Source: Geosiphon pyriformis (taxonomy: Eukaryota; Glomeromycota; Glomeromycetes; Archaeosporales; Geosiphonaceae). Taken from it: DNA of 64,000 bases. The DNA lies in contig JAAOMT010000672.1 of NCBI GenBank assembly GCA_016748015.1, positions 443,094-507,093 on the forward strand, in the 5' to 3' direction. This document shows positions 1 through 58,560 of the stretch, piece by piece (position 1 is the first letter of the stretch; each line of letters opens with the position of its first letter). Below the pieces are notes generated by a model that made no database searches, had not been told where the DNA came from, and saw only the letters and a program-made list of their open reading frames with translations. A program made the translations under genes and the position numbers.

Positions 1-678
1 ATTTTAACTTCTTATCTCACGATCTCAGTAGCTTATTGAAATGTTGGAATTTTTAATGTTGGAATTTTTACAAATTTTAGCAGCAAGATCGTCATATTTT
101 GCTAGTGATTCGGTTAAAGACAAAATGATGCTATTGTTTTCCCTAAAACCAACATCTTTGTAGTGGCTTATATGTTTCTTTTGTATGGAATATTTTATTC
201 ACACTATTCAATTTTTCGCTTTTTTTTTATAGATATATTTACATTGATAAAATTTAAATGATCCTTTTTTATGATTGTATCATTAATTTAGTTCCTGAAT
301 TATGAGTCATAATATTTCCTAAAACATTTGCAAAACATATTTTTTAAAGAATCATACTTAAAAACATGGAGGCATAATTTTATTATTAACAGAAGCTTAA
401 AACATTGATCAAAAAATTATTATAAAAAGCAATAGAGTTATCAATAATCAATTATAAAAATCTATAAATATTTTTCTAAAACAAAAATGTTATTTATTTT
501 ACACAAATAATAAGTTAATCTGTTCAAATATTTATAATTGAAATCAATTAAAAACCTCCCGATTAAATTAGAAAATTTCGAAGATCCCCTTTATAAAAAA
601 AAACAGGAAAGCGATGTCAACTAAAACTCTTTTAGTTATTTAGAAGGCATTGTTAATTCTGGATATTCTTTTCTTTTT

Positions 679-718
679 GCTTATACTTGATTCATTTTGC
701 TTATACTTGATTCGTTTT
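679..718. repeat. Two-copy 20-bp tandem repeat
   Basis: Two consecutive 20-bp units (gcttatacttgattcatttt and a copy with one substitution). The mirrored copy lies in the right arm near 2775-2814. Confidence 0.85.
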
Positions 719-890
719 GCTGGAGTGAGTTGAACTGGAAGAACATTTATATGATCATTGTTTAATGAATTTTTATTCATCCTTTTGGCAGTTAAGAATA
801 CATCGGTCTATATATTAAAGGTAAAATTTTTTTAATAGTGAAACATTATAAATATTAATACTTATTAATTCTTACCTCAAAATTCATCAA

Positions 891-1377
891 TTAAATTAAA
901 TCTTTAGCAAAAGTTTCAAAATCTTCAAAACAAATTGGTATCTTCATAGAAAGGAATTCATCAAGTAAGTAAATTGATGGAAGTGGTCGGATTAAGTATT
1001 TGATATTAATGTAGCCATCTATAATCAAAAAATATATAAATGTAAGTAAAAATATTATTATTTGATTATTTGATTNNNNNNNNNNNNNNNNNNNNATAAA
1101 TTAAAAAATAAATTAAAAATGATAAATTAGAAAATAAATTAAGAACGATAAATTAAAATATAAATTAAAAATAAATTAAAAACGAAATTAAAGATAAGTT
1201 AAAAAATAAATATATAATACTTACCAATGAGTAAAAATTTGTATGATCTTAATAAAAGTAAGGATCAAACCTCCACTTATAAATGATTTGCGAACAAGAG
1301 TTAGAATTTGGTTTCTATTACTCGCTGCTTTAGTAAATTGACTGATATATTGTCGAAATTTGTTCGTTTGATTCCAT
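891..1377 (-). pseudogene. Left-arm mirror of the unknown gene at 1550-2602
   Basis: This is the reverse-complement copy of the gene in the right arm, reading away from the palindrome centre, with its middle lost in the N gap. Its start region (ATG at 1377-1375) has an extra A relative to the right copy, which shifts the frame after three codons. The last exon (near 891-1020) is identical to that of the right copy. Confidence 0.5.
1076..1095. other. Assembly gap (20 N)
   Basis: Twenty N bases in the left arm of the inverted repeat. From the arm arithmetic the missing sequence should be about 587 bp and match the reverse complement of 1831-2417. Confidence 0.98.
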
Positions 1378-1549
1378 AATTGTCTTTTGAATATATCACT
1401 TAACCAATAATTTTGATCAAGATCAAAATTTGAATTAATTGTTTTTTTTATTTCTCTATTAAAAATATCAATTTCTTTCTTTTCGTTGATACTCTTTCAG
1501 GAATTCAAATAATTTTCACTTTCATTCTCACTATTACTTTTGTTCAAGT

Positions 1550-2602
1550 ATGGAATCAACGAACGAATTTCGACAATATATCAGTCAATTTACTAAAGCA
1601 GCGAGTAATAGAAACCAAATTCTAACTCTTGTTCGCAAATCATTTATAAGTGGAGGTTTGATCCTTACTTTTATTAAGATCATACAAATTTTTACTCATT
1701 GGTAAGTATTATATATTTATTTTTTAACTTATCTTTAATTTCGTTTTTAATTTATTTTTAATTTATATTTTAATTTATCGTTCTTAATTTATTTTCTAAT
1801 TTATCATTTTTAATTTATTTTTTAATTTATCGTTTTTAATTTATTTTTTGCTTTATCATTTTTATATTATTTTTAAATTTATTATTTTTAATTTATTGTT
1901 TTTCTAATTTAATTATAGTTTATTTTTTGATTTATTGTTTTTAATTTATTTAATTTTTAATTTTAATTTTTCTTTTAGCTCGGTTCGATTAGAAGCTCCT
2001 ATAGCCTATGAAGCAGAGTATTATAATTTGGAGAGTACATTTGCAATCGATACGATTATCTATATTATGACACGTTTATTTCATATGCATATGAATCTTT
2101 TGGATATTGGATAATAATTTTAAATTAATGTTTATTTATTTATTTATATTTTATTTAGGATTGAATTAATGACATCAAATACAAGAAAACACAAATTTGA
2201 TGGAATATTAAAAGTAATAAAAACAAAAAAGAATAATCAAGTAATTATTCTGTTTGAATTTTCTAAAGGAAGAAAACGACAGCAAGAAAAGAAAAGGAAG
2301 ATTCTATTAAATTATCCAGAAATGCGATGAGAATTTCAAAAAAAATGTTAAAGACCATTCCTAAAGAACAAGCGATGGTTTATATGATACAATCAGTCAG
2401 TAAGTATTAAAATTATTAATCAAATAATCAAATAATAATATTTTTACTTACATTTATATATTTTTTGATTATAGATGGCTACATTAATATCAAATACTTA
2501 ATCCGACCACTTCCATCAATTTACTTACTTGATGAATTCCTTTCTATGAAGATACCAATTTGTTTTGAAGATTTTGAAACTTTTGCTAAAGATTTAATTT
2601 AA
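1550..2602 (+). pseudogene. Decayed multi-exon gene, unknown family
   Basis: I do not recognise the family. Coding-like pieces in order are: an ATG at 1550 opening about 50 codons (start MESTNEFRQYISQF) to a clean GTAAGT donor near 1701; a second exon from about 1980 (contains RLEAPIAYEAEYYNLES); a third from about 2160 (MTSNTRKHKFDGILKVIK) rich in Lys/Arg; a fourth ending at a GTAAGT donor near 2400; and a last exon from about 2476 (GYINIKYLIRPLPSIYLLDE) to the TAA at 2600-2602. Two lesions are visible. The expected donor after the second exon reads GATAAT instead of GTAAT, so the frame runs into a stop. A one-base shift with an in-frame TGA occurs near 2325. It is part of the inverted repeat, with a mirror copy to the left. 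Confidence 0.5.
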
Positions 2603-3492
2603 TTGATGAATTTTGAGGTAAGAATTAATAAGTATTAATATTTATAATGTTTCACTATTAAAAAAATTTTACCTTTAATATATAGACCGATGTATTCTTA
2701 ACTGCCAAAAGGATGAATAAAAATTCATTAAACAATGATCATATAAATGTTCTTCCAGTTCAACTCACTCCAGCAAAACGAATCAAGTATAAGCAAAATG
2801 AATCAAGTATAAGCAAAAAGAAAAGAATATCCAGAATTAACAATGCCTTCTAAATAACTAAAAGAGTTTTAGTTGACATCGCTTTCCTGTTTTTTTTTAT
2901 AAAGGGGATCTTCGAAATTTTCTAATTTAATCGGGAGGTTTTTAATTGATTTCAATTATAAATATTTGAACAGATTAACTTATTATTTGTGTAAAATAAA
3001 TAACATTTTTGTTTTAGAAAAATATTTATAGATTTTTATAATTGATTATTGATAACTCTATTGCTTTTTATAATAATTTTTTGATCAATGTTTTAAGCTT
3101 CTGTTAATAATAAAATTATGCCTCCATGTTTTTAAGTATGATTCTTTAAAAAATATGTTTTGCAAATGTTTTAGGAAATATTATGACTCATAATTCAGGA
3201 ACTAAATTAATGATACAATCATAAAAAAGGATCATTTAAATTTTATCAATGTAAATATATCTATAAAAAAAAAGCGAAAAATTGAATAGTGTGAATAAAA
3301 TATTCCATACAAAAGAAACATATAAGCCACTACAAAGATGTTGGTTTTAGGGAAAACAATAGCATCATTTTGTCTTTAACCGAATCACTAGCAAAATATG
3401 ACGATCTTGCTGCTAAAATTTGTAAAAATTCCAACATTAAAAATTCCAACATTTCAATAAGCTACTGAGATCGTGAGATAAGAAGTTAAAAT

Positions 3493-4290
3493 ATTGATAA
3501 TTTAAAATATATTTTGGACAAAACCACTTGAATTTTATACAAATATTTATATTGTAAAATAGTATCTGCTCCTTAACTTGGGTTATTTTATCCAGGAAAG
3601 CTAGAGAATTTGCAAAGATTATTTCTCAAAAGAAATAGTTTTATCATTATTAAATATTATTTGAGACCAATTGAATTGGAAGGCAAAATTTTAAACTTAT
3701 ATTAATCTATGAATTAACCATAAAGAATCCCTTAAAAATGTTATTAAATAATAGACGCATATTATGTTATTAGTTAATTGTAATTTTTTAATAAAATGTT
3801 TATAATTTTGTAAAGTTTGAGGATTTTCAAAAAGTTTTTATTTATTTTCTTGAAAAGCTTTGAAAAAAAATTGGAAAATGTAAAATTGTTTTTAAAAATT
3901 TTTATTACAAGTCGAAATTCTTAAGCATAACAAAATCTTGATTAGCATATGAATATTAATTAAATAGAAATTCAAGTATAAAATTTTTAATCATTGATTA
4001 CAAAAAAATATTATATATTAATGCATTTTTTCATATCAAATTTAGATTTATATAAAATAAAATATTAATTTTAGGCAAAAGACAAATTATTGCATAAGAT
4101 AAAAAAATATAATTTTATTATTACATATTTTATTTTTTATAAAAAAAAGTGATTATTAAATTATTACTATTTATGTTCAATACTAATTATTTTTTTATTC
4201 AACTTTTATTCTTGATATTATTATTTTGTATATTGTTAAATTATCGAAAAAAACTAGACAATGAAAAATTTATAAAAATGATAACTTTAG
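3493..4290. other. No gene seen
   Basis: AT-rich sequence to the right of the palindrome with no open frame of note, no splice-consistent exon and no repeat that I recognise. Confidence 0.6.
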
Positions 4291-4299
4291 CACATACAA

Positions 4300-5340
4300 C
4301 ATTTCAAAGTTAACAACTAGGAGATTATGGCAAAATTATGATAAAATCTATACCTGAAGCATGTAAAAGCAAAATGAGAGGACTAACTTTATCTATAGTT
4401 GATTGATTTAATCAATGTGAACCCTTTATTTAGCAAAGAAATTTAAATTTTTATGATTTGATTAAAACATTCTTTGAAAAGAACAGTTGTCAATATTTTA
4501 CTTTTGGAAAAATTTATTCAAGTCAACCTTGAAATACACCAACTTGACATTTCAAAATTTCGAATAAATTCTTATTACATTATTGGCCTAAATTATTGAA
4601 ATGGTCAAAAATTTTTTAAAAAAATGATCGTTTAAAAAAAGATGACACCGGAAATATCCAAAAAAACGGGACAAAGACATCCATTCCATTCACAAAAAGA
4701 ACTATATTAGATCAGTCAACTATTTCAAAGACATTTGAAAGTATTTAGCCATAAAAAAACCTTATTAGTTACCCCCAACGTTTAAAGAAAACAAAGAAAA
4801 CGAGTTGAAGGGGTATAGAAAACATCGAAATGATGGAAAGATTTTGCCACTAAAAGAACAACATGTTTGTTTTGTTTTTGGAAGGATAATGACAGGTATT
4901 TATTATGTAAAAATTCTATGAAAAAGCCTTCCAAAAGTTAAAAATGATAGGCACTCCAACAAGATAATTACTGTAAACACACCTGTGGTGATGCCAAGAA
5001 ATTCTTTCAAGAGAATGTTCCTGAACTCATAAACTGGTCATAGAATTGTCCTGATTTAAACCTATTTTTAGATTTGTGGAGGTTTCTATACTAGACGTTT
5101 TAAGGCTATAATGGAGAACATATGAATTTTCCGGCTGTTATAATTGAGCTATTGAGGTTGTAGAGTTATAATGAATTCATAATTCCAATTATTTCTTATA
5201 CAATTAAATAATCTGAGCATATTTGAAATTTTTGAATTGTATAAAGCTCCACCTCATGATTATTTTTAACGACGTATTAATTAAACAATTAATAGCCGTC
5301 TTTCAGAAAAGATGAAAAAAATCATGGAATCCATATCTCA
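4300..5340 (+). pseudogene. Tc1/mariner transposase relic
   Basis: The C-terminal catalytic part is recognisable at 4954-5083. It reads LQQDNYCKHTCGDAKKFF, then ENVPELINW, a TAG, and NCPDLN, matching the Tc1 pattern QQDN.PKH...WP..SPDLNPIE. The Asp of QQDN (4963-4965) is a DDE catalytic residue. Near 5287-5330 a segment reading INSRLSEKMKKIMES resembles the extreme C-terminus of these transposases. The upstream part to about 4300 is interrupted by several stops and frameshifts and only loosely resembles the DNA-binding half. I could not find terminal inverted repeats, so the ends are approximate. Confidence 0.7.
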
Positions 5341-5628
5341 CTGTCCCTCATTATTTTTAAAACAATAAAAAAAATTTCACAAGACAAAGAATAATTAATT
5401 TAACACTGACACTTATGACTAGATAATGGGATGAAAAGTTTTACGATGGGGAAATTATTTTCATTGAACGGATGATTACAGTTTTCTCAATAACAATCAC
5501 AAAACTCTATGCAGTGATATCATTCATGATTACATACATATATATATAATGAAACAGATTGTGAATATTCGAATATGCATCTTAATAATCTTTAAACATT
5601 TTGATTTTCATCTAGAACCATTTTTAAT

Positions 5629-5926
5629 AATGAATAAAAAAACATCCTTATCATCTTTACCATCTTTTGATCACAATTGAAAAGTGGCTTTTGATTTACA
5701 TGAATTTGTTAATGATTCTATTAAAACAAACATTAGGCAAATGTCACAGCAAACAGATGTTTTAGAATTTTCATTGGCGATTGAAGAATGTGCTAACTTT
5801 TAAATAGTGACAAGGGTCATTGTAAATTTTTAATTTTAAAATTGGCTTGTGAAAACTCTCTTTCATAAAAACTATTGTAAAAACATATTTTCCAACGAAA
5901 TTTCATTATATAATAACAATCAAAAA

Positions 5927-56545: not shown

Positions 56546-58560
56546 TTGTCCCTGAACAAACCTTTTTCTAAAATATACCAAAAAACACTCATCGTTTCAA
56601 CTTCAACAATTGAAAATATAACTTCCCCCCTCGACTGGCTTGAAGGAACATTGATTGTCATCAAAGAAAATTTGGCCATTTTTCTAGCTGGTGAATATTC
56701 AAAGGCTGTTCACTTGGTGAAAAATATATTGAAGCCAGTCAGAAACACTATAGAACATTTATTCGATTGCTTGAATAATAGAAGTCAGAGCATTCGACAG
56801 ACTATATTTTGCTCGGTTTTTCTTTAGAACATGAAATTGGAGCTATTCCTAATTTAAAAAAGCATTTTGAGAATCTTAGAAAACAGTGAATGCAGGGGAT
56901 TATTTTGGACACTTCTCCTTAGGTTATTGCTATGATATTAAAGTCGGTCCTTTACAAGATCGAGAAAAAGCAATTGAACTCTATTCAAAGCCAGCAGAGG
57001 TGGGAGATACAAGTGCACAATTTAATCTAGAATTTTCTTAACGAAATTTATTGGGAGCGACGAAAAGTATTTTGAACTCTATTCAAAAGCAGGCGGGAGA
57101 TACAAGTATACAATAAAATCTTGGATTTTGTTATAGAAATCGAGTGGGAACGACGAAAAATCAGGAAAAAGCCTTTTGAAATCTATTCAAAAAGCAGAAG
57201 AGGCATGCAATACAAATGCACCATAAAAACTTCAATTTCGTTATAGAACTCGATTGGGAATAACGAAAGATGAGCAAAAAGCATGTTGAACTTTATTTTA
57301 AAAGCAGAAGAGAGGTGCTGTACAAACGCACCATATAATCTTCGATTTCGTTATAGAACTCGATTGGGAATAACGAAAATTGAGCAAAAGCATTTTGAAC
57401 TCTGCTAAAAGCAGGAGAGACGAGTAATACAAATACAAAATACAATTTTGGGTTTCGCTATAGAAATCGATTGGAAACAAGGAAAAATTAGGAAAAACCA
57501 ATTTGAACTCTATTCTAAAAGCAGCAGAGGCGGGTAAAACAAATGCACAATACAATCTCAAAAGCAGCAGGGGGTATACAGATGCACAATACAATCTTGG
57601 ATTTTGTTATAGAAATCGATTGGGAACAACGAAAAATGAACAAAAAGCATTTTGAACTTTATTTTAAAAGCAGAAGAGGTGTGCGATACAAATGCACCAT
57701 AAAATCTTAAATTTCGTTATAGAAATCGATTGGGAACGACGAAAAAGTTAGTAAGAGGTGGTTACTACAAATGCACCATACAATCTTCGATTTGGTTATA
57801 GAATCGCTTGGGAACAACGAAAGACGAGCAAAAAGCAGCAGAGGCGAGTAATACAAATGCCTAATACTATCTTGGGTATTGTTGTCCAAATCGAATGAAA
57901 TGAGGTATTTTTTTTGAAGTAATATGTGTGATTTTTATTCTCCTTATTTTTTTTAGAAACCAAAAAATGCATTGAAATAGTTTATCGCATCTTGGAAGTG
58001 CATCTTGCAAATATATCTTTGAACGGTCTGGGATAAACAAAGATATTACAACCAATGAACTCATTGGGATTTTACCATTTGTGGGACGCGGCGACTTCAG
58101 TTTTTCTCAAAGTGAACAAAGATACTTTTATTTTGGGAAATGTTTTGTCGTATTTTTTTCAAACCACAAATGGCCTAAGGTTTGTGCATGAATTAGAACC
58201 AGTGCATGGGGGCTTGCATCTAGAAATCAAATCTATAGTCTGACGATATCTTTGGTGTTGTTAAACGCTCAGCGCCCGAACTTTGTAACCCGTCGTCACA
58301 TACCAAATACAGCGATATTCATGGTTGTGCTATCATTTCCTGGAAAAATTTTCAGGAGAAAGACCGTAGAACGATATTAAAACCTTATGTACATTCAATT
58401 AGATTAAATTTAGGGAAAGCGCCCCATAATCGAAAAGCATATATTCAGGAAATGATTTTAAAAAATGGAATGGTAATCCGGATTGCCGTCATACTGCATA
58501 AGAACTTAAACAAAGAGTTATTGCTCCCCGCAACAATTGCAACTTAAACAACTTATCCGT
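56546..58560 (+). pseudogene. Sel1-repeat / protein kinase pseudogene
   Basis: The family joins a kinase domain to Sel1-like repeats and is expanded in these fungi. A 93-codon frame (56546-56827) opens it. Sel1 units follow from about 56898 (GHFSLGYCYDIKVGPLQDRE, KAIELYSKPAEVGDTSAQFN) and recur at about 108-bp spacing to about 57880 (start points near 56977, 57072, 57178, 57288, 57398, 57506, 57654), each broken by frameshifts or stops. At 58010-58540 kinase pieces appear: TNGLRFVHELEPVHGGLH, where the catalytic HGD is HGG; then RSAPELCNPSSHTKYSDI, corresponding to the APE and SDIYSF region; and NPDCRHTA-stop-ELKQRV at the end. The kinase therefore follows the Sel1 array. Confidence 0.8.
56898..57880 (+). 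repeat. Degenerate ~108-bp tandem array (Sel1 units)
   Basis: Eight or so units sharing gaactctattcaaaagcag and tatagaaatcgattgggaac at regular spacing; each unit would encode the 36-residue Sel1 helix pair. One unit has a partial internal duplication near 57530-57600. Confidence 0.85.

Follow-up and report, generated by a model that had tools for sequence, protein, structure and literature searches.

The window analysed here is a stretch of 64,000 nt of contig JAAOMT010000672.1 (C369:443094-507093), taken from a genome assembly of 124.7 Mb in 406 contigs, and its left end is occupied by a palindrome whose two arms carry inverted copies of one gene. Window coordinates are used throughout; coordinate 0 is the base just before window base 1, and negative coordinates lie upstream. 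Window base 1 is the edge of the window only, located inside the palindrome and not at its end, and 9,994 upstream bases (L009, C369:433100-443093) were joined to the window for comparison of the arms. Other proteins of the window gave matches to F-box, protein kinase, class 3 lipase and GCR1_C in a profile search, and degenerate tandem repeats, about 77-89% alike, are clustered at 56974-57837. Proteins of these kinds, AT-richness and the size of the genome suggest a fungal host, probably a mycorrhizal (Glomeromycotina-like) one.

The palindrome and the gene in its arms

Within the window, the outer parts of the arms (1-1075 and 2418-3492) are 100% complementary, and an inner block of 265 bp (1096-1360 and 1566-1830) is likewise exact, which bears out an earlier note on this DNA that had described these pairs as collinear reverse complements. 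The same note had placed the palindrome at 1-3492; the palindrome is there, with a greater extent. Once the upstream bases are included, BLAST aligns -760..1075 with 4253..2418 at 99.7% identity over 1,836 bp, and the exact arms comprise -737..1075 against 2418..4230 plus the inner block, with -737 (C369:442356) pairing with 4230. The interior that can be compared amounts to 1,813 + 265 = 2,078 bp and contains no difference. Provided that the gap in the left arm mirrors the right arm, each arm is 2,665 bp long, and the spacer that separates the two has 205 bp (Table 1). On the same proviso, that the arms are collinear, the 587 bp which the earlier note assigned to the gap from the coordinate sums 3493 and 2926 are correct, being equal to 1831-2417.

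Table 1. Features of the palindrome in window coordinates.
Feature	Position	Strand	Remarks
Left arm, outer part	1..1075, on to -737 upstream of the window	- (gene orientation)	Exact reverse complement of 2418-4230, including the upstream continuation
20-N assembly gap	1076..1095	.	Predicted to hold 587 bp, the mirror of 1831-2417, given collinear arms
Left arm, inner part	1096..1360	-	265 bp, exact with 1566-1830
Spacer, 205 bp	1361..1565	.	1361-1541 related to, and collinear with, 5′ sequence of C203 and C91 in the orientation of the left copy
Diverged inner edges of both copies	1361-1382 (left), about 1545-1565 (right)	.	Within the spacer
Right arm, inverted duplicate	1566..4230	+	Exact, 2,665 bp, gapless
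Diverged outer edge, right copy	4231..4248	+	4231-4245 (15 bp) fully match C203; left copy 12/15
AT-rich tandem array, about 26-bp units, apparent intron	1703..1968	+	One end of the left-arm gap lies in the mirror of the array
Exon-like open segments, right gene copy (without 5′ part)	1490..2600	+	Left-arm counterparts on the minus strand, except those in the gap

Inverted pairs and runs of N were sought in 150,287 bp, made up of nine sequences (the window with its upstream bases, and eight other loci), each compared with itself. At E 1e-10, this set contained no further inverted pair of 100 bp or more above 89% identity, and a chance origin of the palindrome is therefore excluded. The palindrome is a single case, studied in one assembly. 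The strong hairpin obtained on single-strand folding of its centre is trivial for any inverted repeat and is given no weight.

The open segments of the arms resemble exons of one gene separated by AT-rich introns, one of which holds the array of about 26-bp units. This gene belongs to a small family: searches of the genome at E up to 0.01 gave five places for one exon and six for another, both arms counted. The exon with five places has an in-frame stop on both arms, which is absent from the relatives on contigs C203, C91 and C254; as the stop is missing from these relatives, the gene copies in the arms may be decayed. No Pfam match exceeded the cut-off for seven pieces (five from the C369 copies and two from the upstream region in C91) or for five pieces of the C254 paralog; the matches below the cut-off were weak. 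A search of 5.9 kb (L010) against Rfam returned nothing at the gathering score.

Flanks and paralogs

The two arms exit into different flanks. The right arm leaves at 4231 into sequence unlike the left flank, and this right flank (4231-5900) has one match elsewhere, 171 bp at 68%, and is otherwise single copy. In the left flank there is a dispersed repeat, for which 93 matches were listed with 40 out of 1,468 candidates scored. The repeat lies mostly at -2640 to -2260 (in L009) and recurs at at least 40 places in the genome with about 75-84% identity. Two inverted arms with unique flanks, one of the features by which gene-converting palindromes are recognised, are present at the locus, the dispersed repeat lying further out on the left.

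The arm has one-armed paralogs elsewhere in the genome: most of the unit is present on C203, at about 80-87% identity, part of it on C91, and pieces on C11 and C254. Compared in 14 windows of 200 bp, the arm and C203 are 3-20% apart in 13 and 31% apart in the other, and the locus is therefore able to diverge. Both C203 and C91 are collinear with the left arm and then with the spacer, as far as 1516 by BLAST. Further in, 29 of the 32 bases at 1510-1541 agree with C203 and 30 of 32 with C91, scores equalled by none of 300 shuffled queries in either case. The spacer in C369 is without some stretches that are present in the paralogs C203 and C91. On the other side, C203 and C11 track the left flank to -795, beyond the end of the arm. 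Since the left arm and spacer follow the order of C203 and C91, and the left flank that of C203 and C11, the left copy has the older context and the right copy was added. This comparison identifies the left copy as the resident gene and its right counterpart as an inverted duplicate that begins at about 1545 and lacks the 5′ part of the gene.

Some further features of the family were observed. A distant partial relative of the duplicated gene is present at -8848..-8229, 8 kb upstream on the same contig, C369. The C203 (371 kb) and C91 (8 kb) paralogs are 96-98% alike in eight of ten shared windows and far less so in the last two, and a distance of about 0.6 kb separates the C203 copy from its contig end.

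These comparisons bear on two accounts in which the palindrome would have arisen quite differently. Long inverted arms around a short spacer recall a fold-back transposon, or an element with very long terminal inverted repeats. The relatives on C203 and C91, however, are one-armed in the stretches fetched, the four paralog loci fetched (L011-L014) contain no inverted pair of at least 100 bp, and by eye the junction sequences have no obvious target-site duplication; we therefore regard a transposon as extremely improbable. Several two-armed copies, as such an element should have, were not found among C203, C91 and L011-L014.

The other account, a fold-back or scaffolding artefact encompassing the whole palindrome, was one of two origins proposed in the earlier note. 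A scaffold gap does lie inside the palindrome, and erroneous scaffolding is a named source of artificial palindromes in the part of a relevant study that was available (PMC7953838). Against this stand the different flanks, the sequence to the left of the gap having a flank of its own; the gapless run of 1096-64000, which takes in the inner ends of both arms, the spacer between them and the right arm in full, together with its flank; the paralog order of the left arm and spacer; and the derived changes that each arm has at its own edges (see below). We consider such an artefact very unlikely. In a simple fold-back, the path after the fold should repeat the whole sequence, flank included, and the right arm instead exits at 4231 into unlike sequence.

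The assembly contains the two arms, their distinct flanks, a left copy collinear with its paralogs, and an identical interior bounded by diverged edges, and we hold with high confidence that the inverted duplication is real.

Identical interior and diverged edges

The identity of the two copies is very uneven. Eight differences fall within about 40 bp of edge sequence, against none in the 2,078 bp of the interior. Two substitutions and the only indel fall in the inner edge, where 1361-1382 is set against 1565 to about 1545; the earlier note had named one substitution and an indel at the edges of the spacer, and both are present alongside the additional substitution. The other five differences, all substitutions, are confined to 18 bp of the outer edge, at -755 to -738. 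At the rate of the edges, about 400 differences would be expected in the interior (396 with the edges taken as 42 bp). The chance of all eight landing in the edges is about 2e-14 (edges again as 42 bp), a post hoc figure, as the edges are short, were delimited after seeing the data and were set where identity ends.

Homology of the outer edges was assessed in two ways. Over the first 31 outer bp, the left and right sides share 19 ungapped matches, a score that 213 of 200,000 random pairs drawn from the window also attained. This likeness is modest when taken alone, and the homology of the outer edge therefore leans on the match to the paralogs. Of the 15 bp that adjoin the exact arm on its outer side, the right copy shares all 15 with C203 and 14 with C11, and the left copy 12 and 11, respectively; at the three sites where the copies differ, C11 has the state of the right copy.

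The differences were polarised with C203 and C11 for the outer edge and with C203 and C91 for the inner edge. Four changes were assigned to the left copy, three of them in the outer edge (-746, -742, -738) and one in the inner edge, at a site where the right copy has the state of both C203 and C91. The right copy has the derived state in a 1-bp deletion and in two outer substitutions (-755 and -753). The remaining inner site is ambiguous, C203 having the right state and C91 the left. Derived changes are thus found on both arms and at both edges, and the two copies have therefore coexisted for some time. The 1-bp deletion puts an ATG in frame with the first remaining exon of the right copy (1545-1702), and the truncated copy may own a start codon.

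The polarisation also bears on the age of the duplication. The other origin proposed in the earlier note was a recent inverted duplication; the duplication stands, and its recency is doubtful given that the edge differences polarise to both arms. A recent one-step event by inverted template switching would account for the 100% identity of the interior and, if synthesis near the junctions was error-prone, for differences that adjoin them. Copying errors should then have hit the new right copy, whereas four of the differences polarise to the resident left copy, with the right copy keeping the paralog state, and we find this account improbable. An older duplication with a homogenised interior fits better than a recent copy, as judged from the distribution of these changes. 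If the copies are older and their interior is identical, homogenisation is needed, and this was probably brought about by gene conversion or by assembly. The count of none in 2,078 bp against eight in about 40 edge bp is what would be expected if the arms were too similar for the age of their duplication, and identity made in assembly could also give it.

Origin of the identity

The gap at 1076-1095 is the sole run of N in the window. Two more were found in the 150,287 bp scanned, namely one of at least 341 N, possibly a gap as well, with which L046 ends, and one of 20 N at C401:702282-702301 (L048:2282-2301). The latter sits inside a high-copy repeat. Its flanks were used as queries (40 matches listed for each, including self; 40 of about 3,500 candidates scored), and among the matches listed eight relatives (on C138, C235, C253, C325, C330, C346, C366 and C86) have the flanking pieces adjoining, with a spacing of 969-999 bp between them. 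The C401 gap therefore spans about 1 kb, so that 20 N is a placeholder and 587 bp at 1076-1095 would be ordinary. The mirror of the piece missing from the left arm occurs nowhere else at 100% among the six matches to 1970-2417.

The main rival to conversion arises at this gap. The pair would be real, and the left interior would have been filled or collapsed by the assembler with sequence of the right arm; the true left arm would then be more diverged, and conversion would be unneeded. A residual 20-N gap inside the left arm is consistent with this, as are the sharp limits of identity on both sides, from -737 inward and from 1360 inward, which resemble the entry and exit of filler. Conversely, no other copy among the 40 listed resembles the flanks of the C401 gap by more than 94%, so that a habit of pasting is unsupported there, a weak point from one gap, and simple collapse of arms about 20% different would be unusual. 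We judge this rival unlikely, with appreciable weight nonetheless.

We give about an even chance to gene conversion, by which an inverted pair from a small gene family would have drifted at its edges while its interior was kept or made identical from arm to arm. The resident locus would have consisted of the left copy and the spacer. A 2.7-kb piece, comprising the gene without its 5′ exons and with its 3′ flank, would then have been duplicated head to head to the right of the left copy, possibly via inverted template switching or a similar repair event. Thereafter the edges would have drifted, with changes on both arms, and gene conversion would have kept or made the interior identical.

Conversion of this kind has precedents. 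Gene conversion between inverted arms homogenises known palindromes, according to the available part of PMC7953838. The primate Y palindromes (Rozen et al., 2003, cited in PMC7953838) likewise have inverted arms, with a concerted evolution that is attributed there to conversion; here, in contrast, the arms are just 2.7 kb on an unplaced contig, and conversion is proposed from one sequence and not from populations or species. In the same accessible text, palindromes of the parthenogenetic animals Adineta vaga and Folsomia candida resemble the present one in their collinear inverted blocks and are discussed together with conversion and the hazard of scaffolding errors; those are blocks of collinear genes, whereas the present arms hold a single gene around a short spacer. 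Nearby copies are also involved in the rDNA of Rhizophagus irregularis, where, in the portion available, two pairs on the same contigs are more alike than other paralogs, gene conversion was suggested for nearby pairs, and inverted repeat structures were described between neighbouring rDNAs (Maeda et al., 2018; PMC6123716). Those are ribosomal genes with residual heterogeneity, in contrast to the present pair, which comes from an uncharacterised protein gene family and combines an identical interior with diverged edges.

Should the identity prove false, the locus would be a clear case of a gap in one duplicate accompanying spurious identity. Tentatively, and with slightly less than an even chance, it may instead represent a small inverted pair kept 100% identical by conversion that ends a few tens of bp from both ends and leaves readable tract boundaries, in a host that is probably arbuscular-mycorrhizal, where concerted evolution of rDNA has been reported to be relaxed. 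If the identity is real, the palindrome would preserve, in compact natural form, the trace of a conversion between inverted copies whose tract can be seen to end on either side, and would offer a direct test of paralog homogenisation in a lineage for whose nearby rDNA pairs conversion was suggested by Maeda et al.
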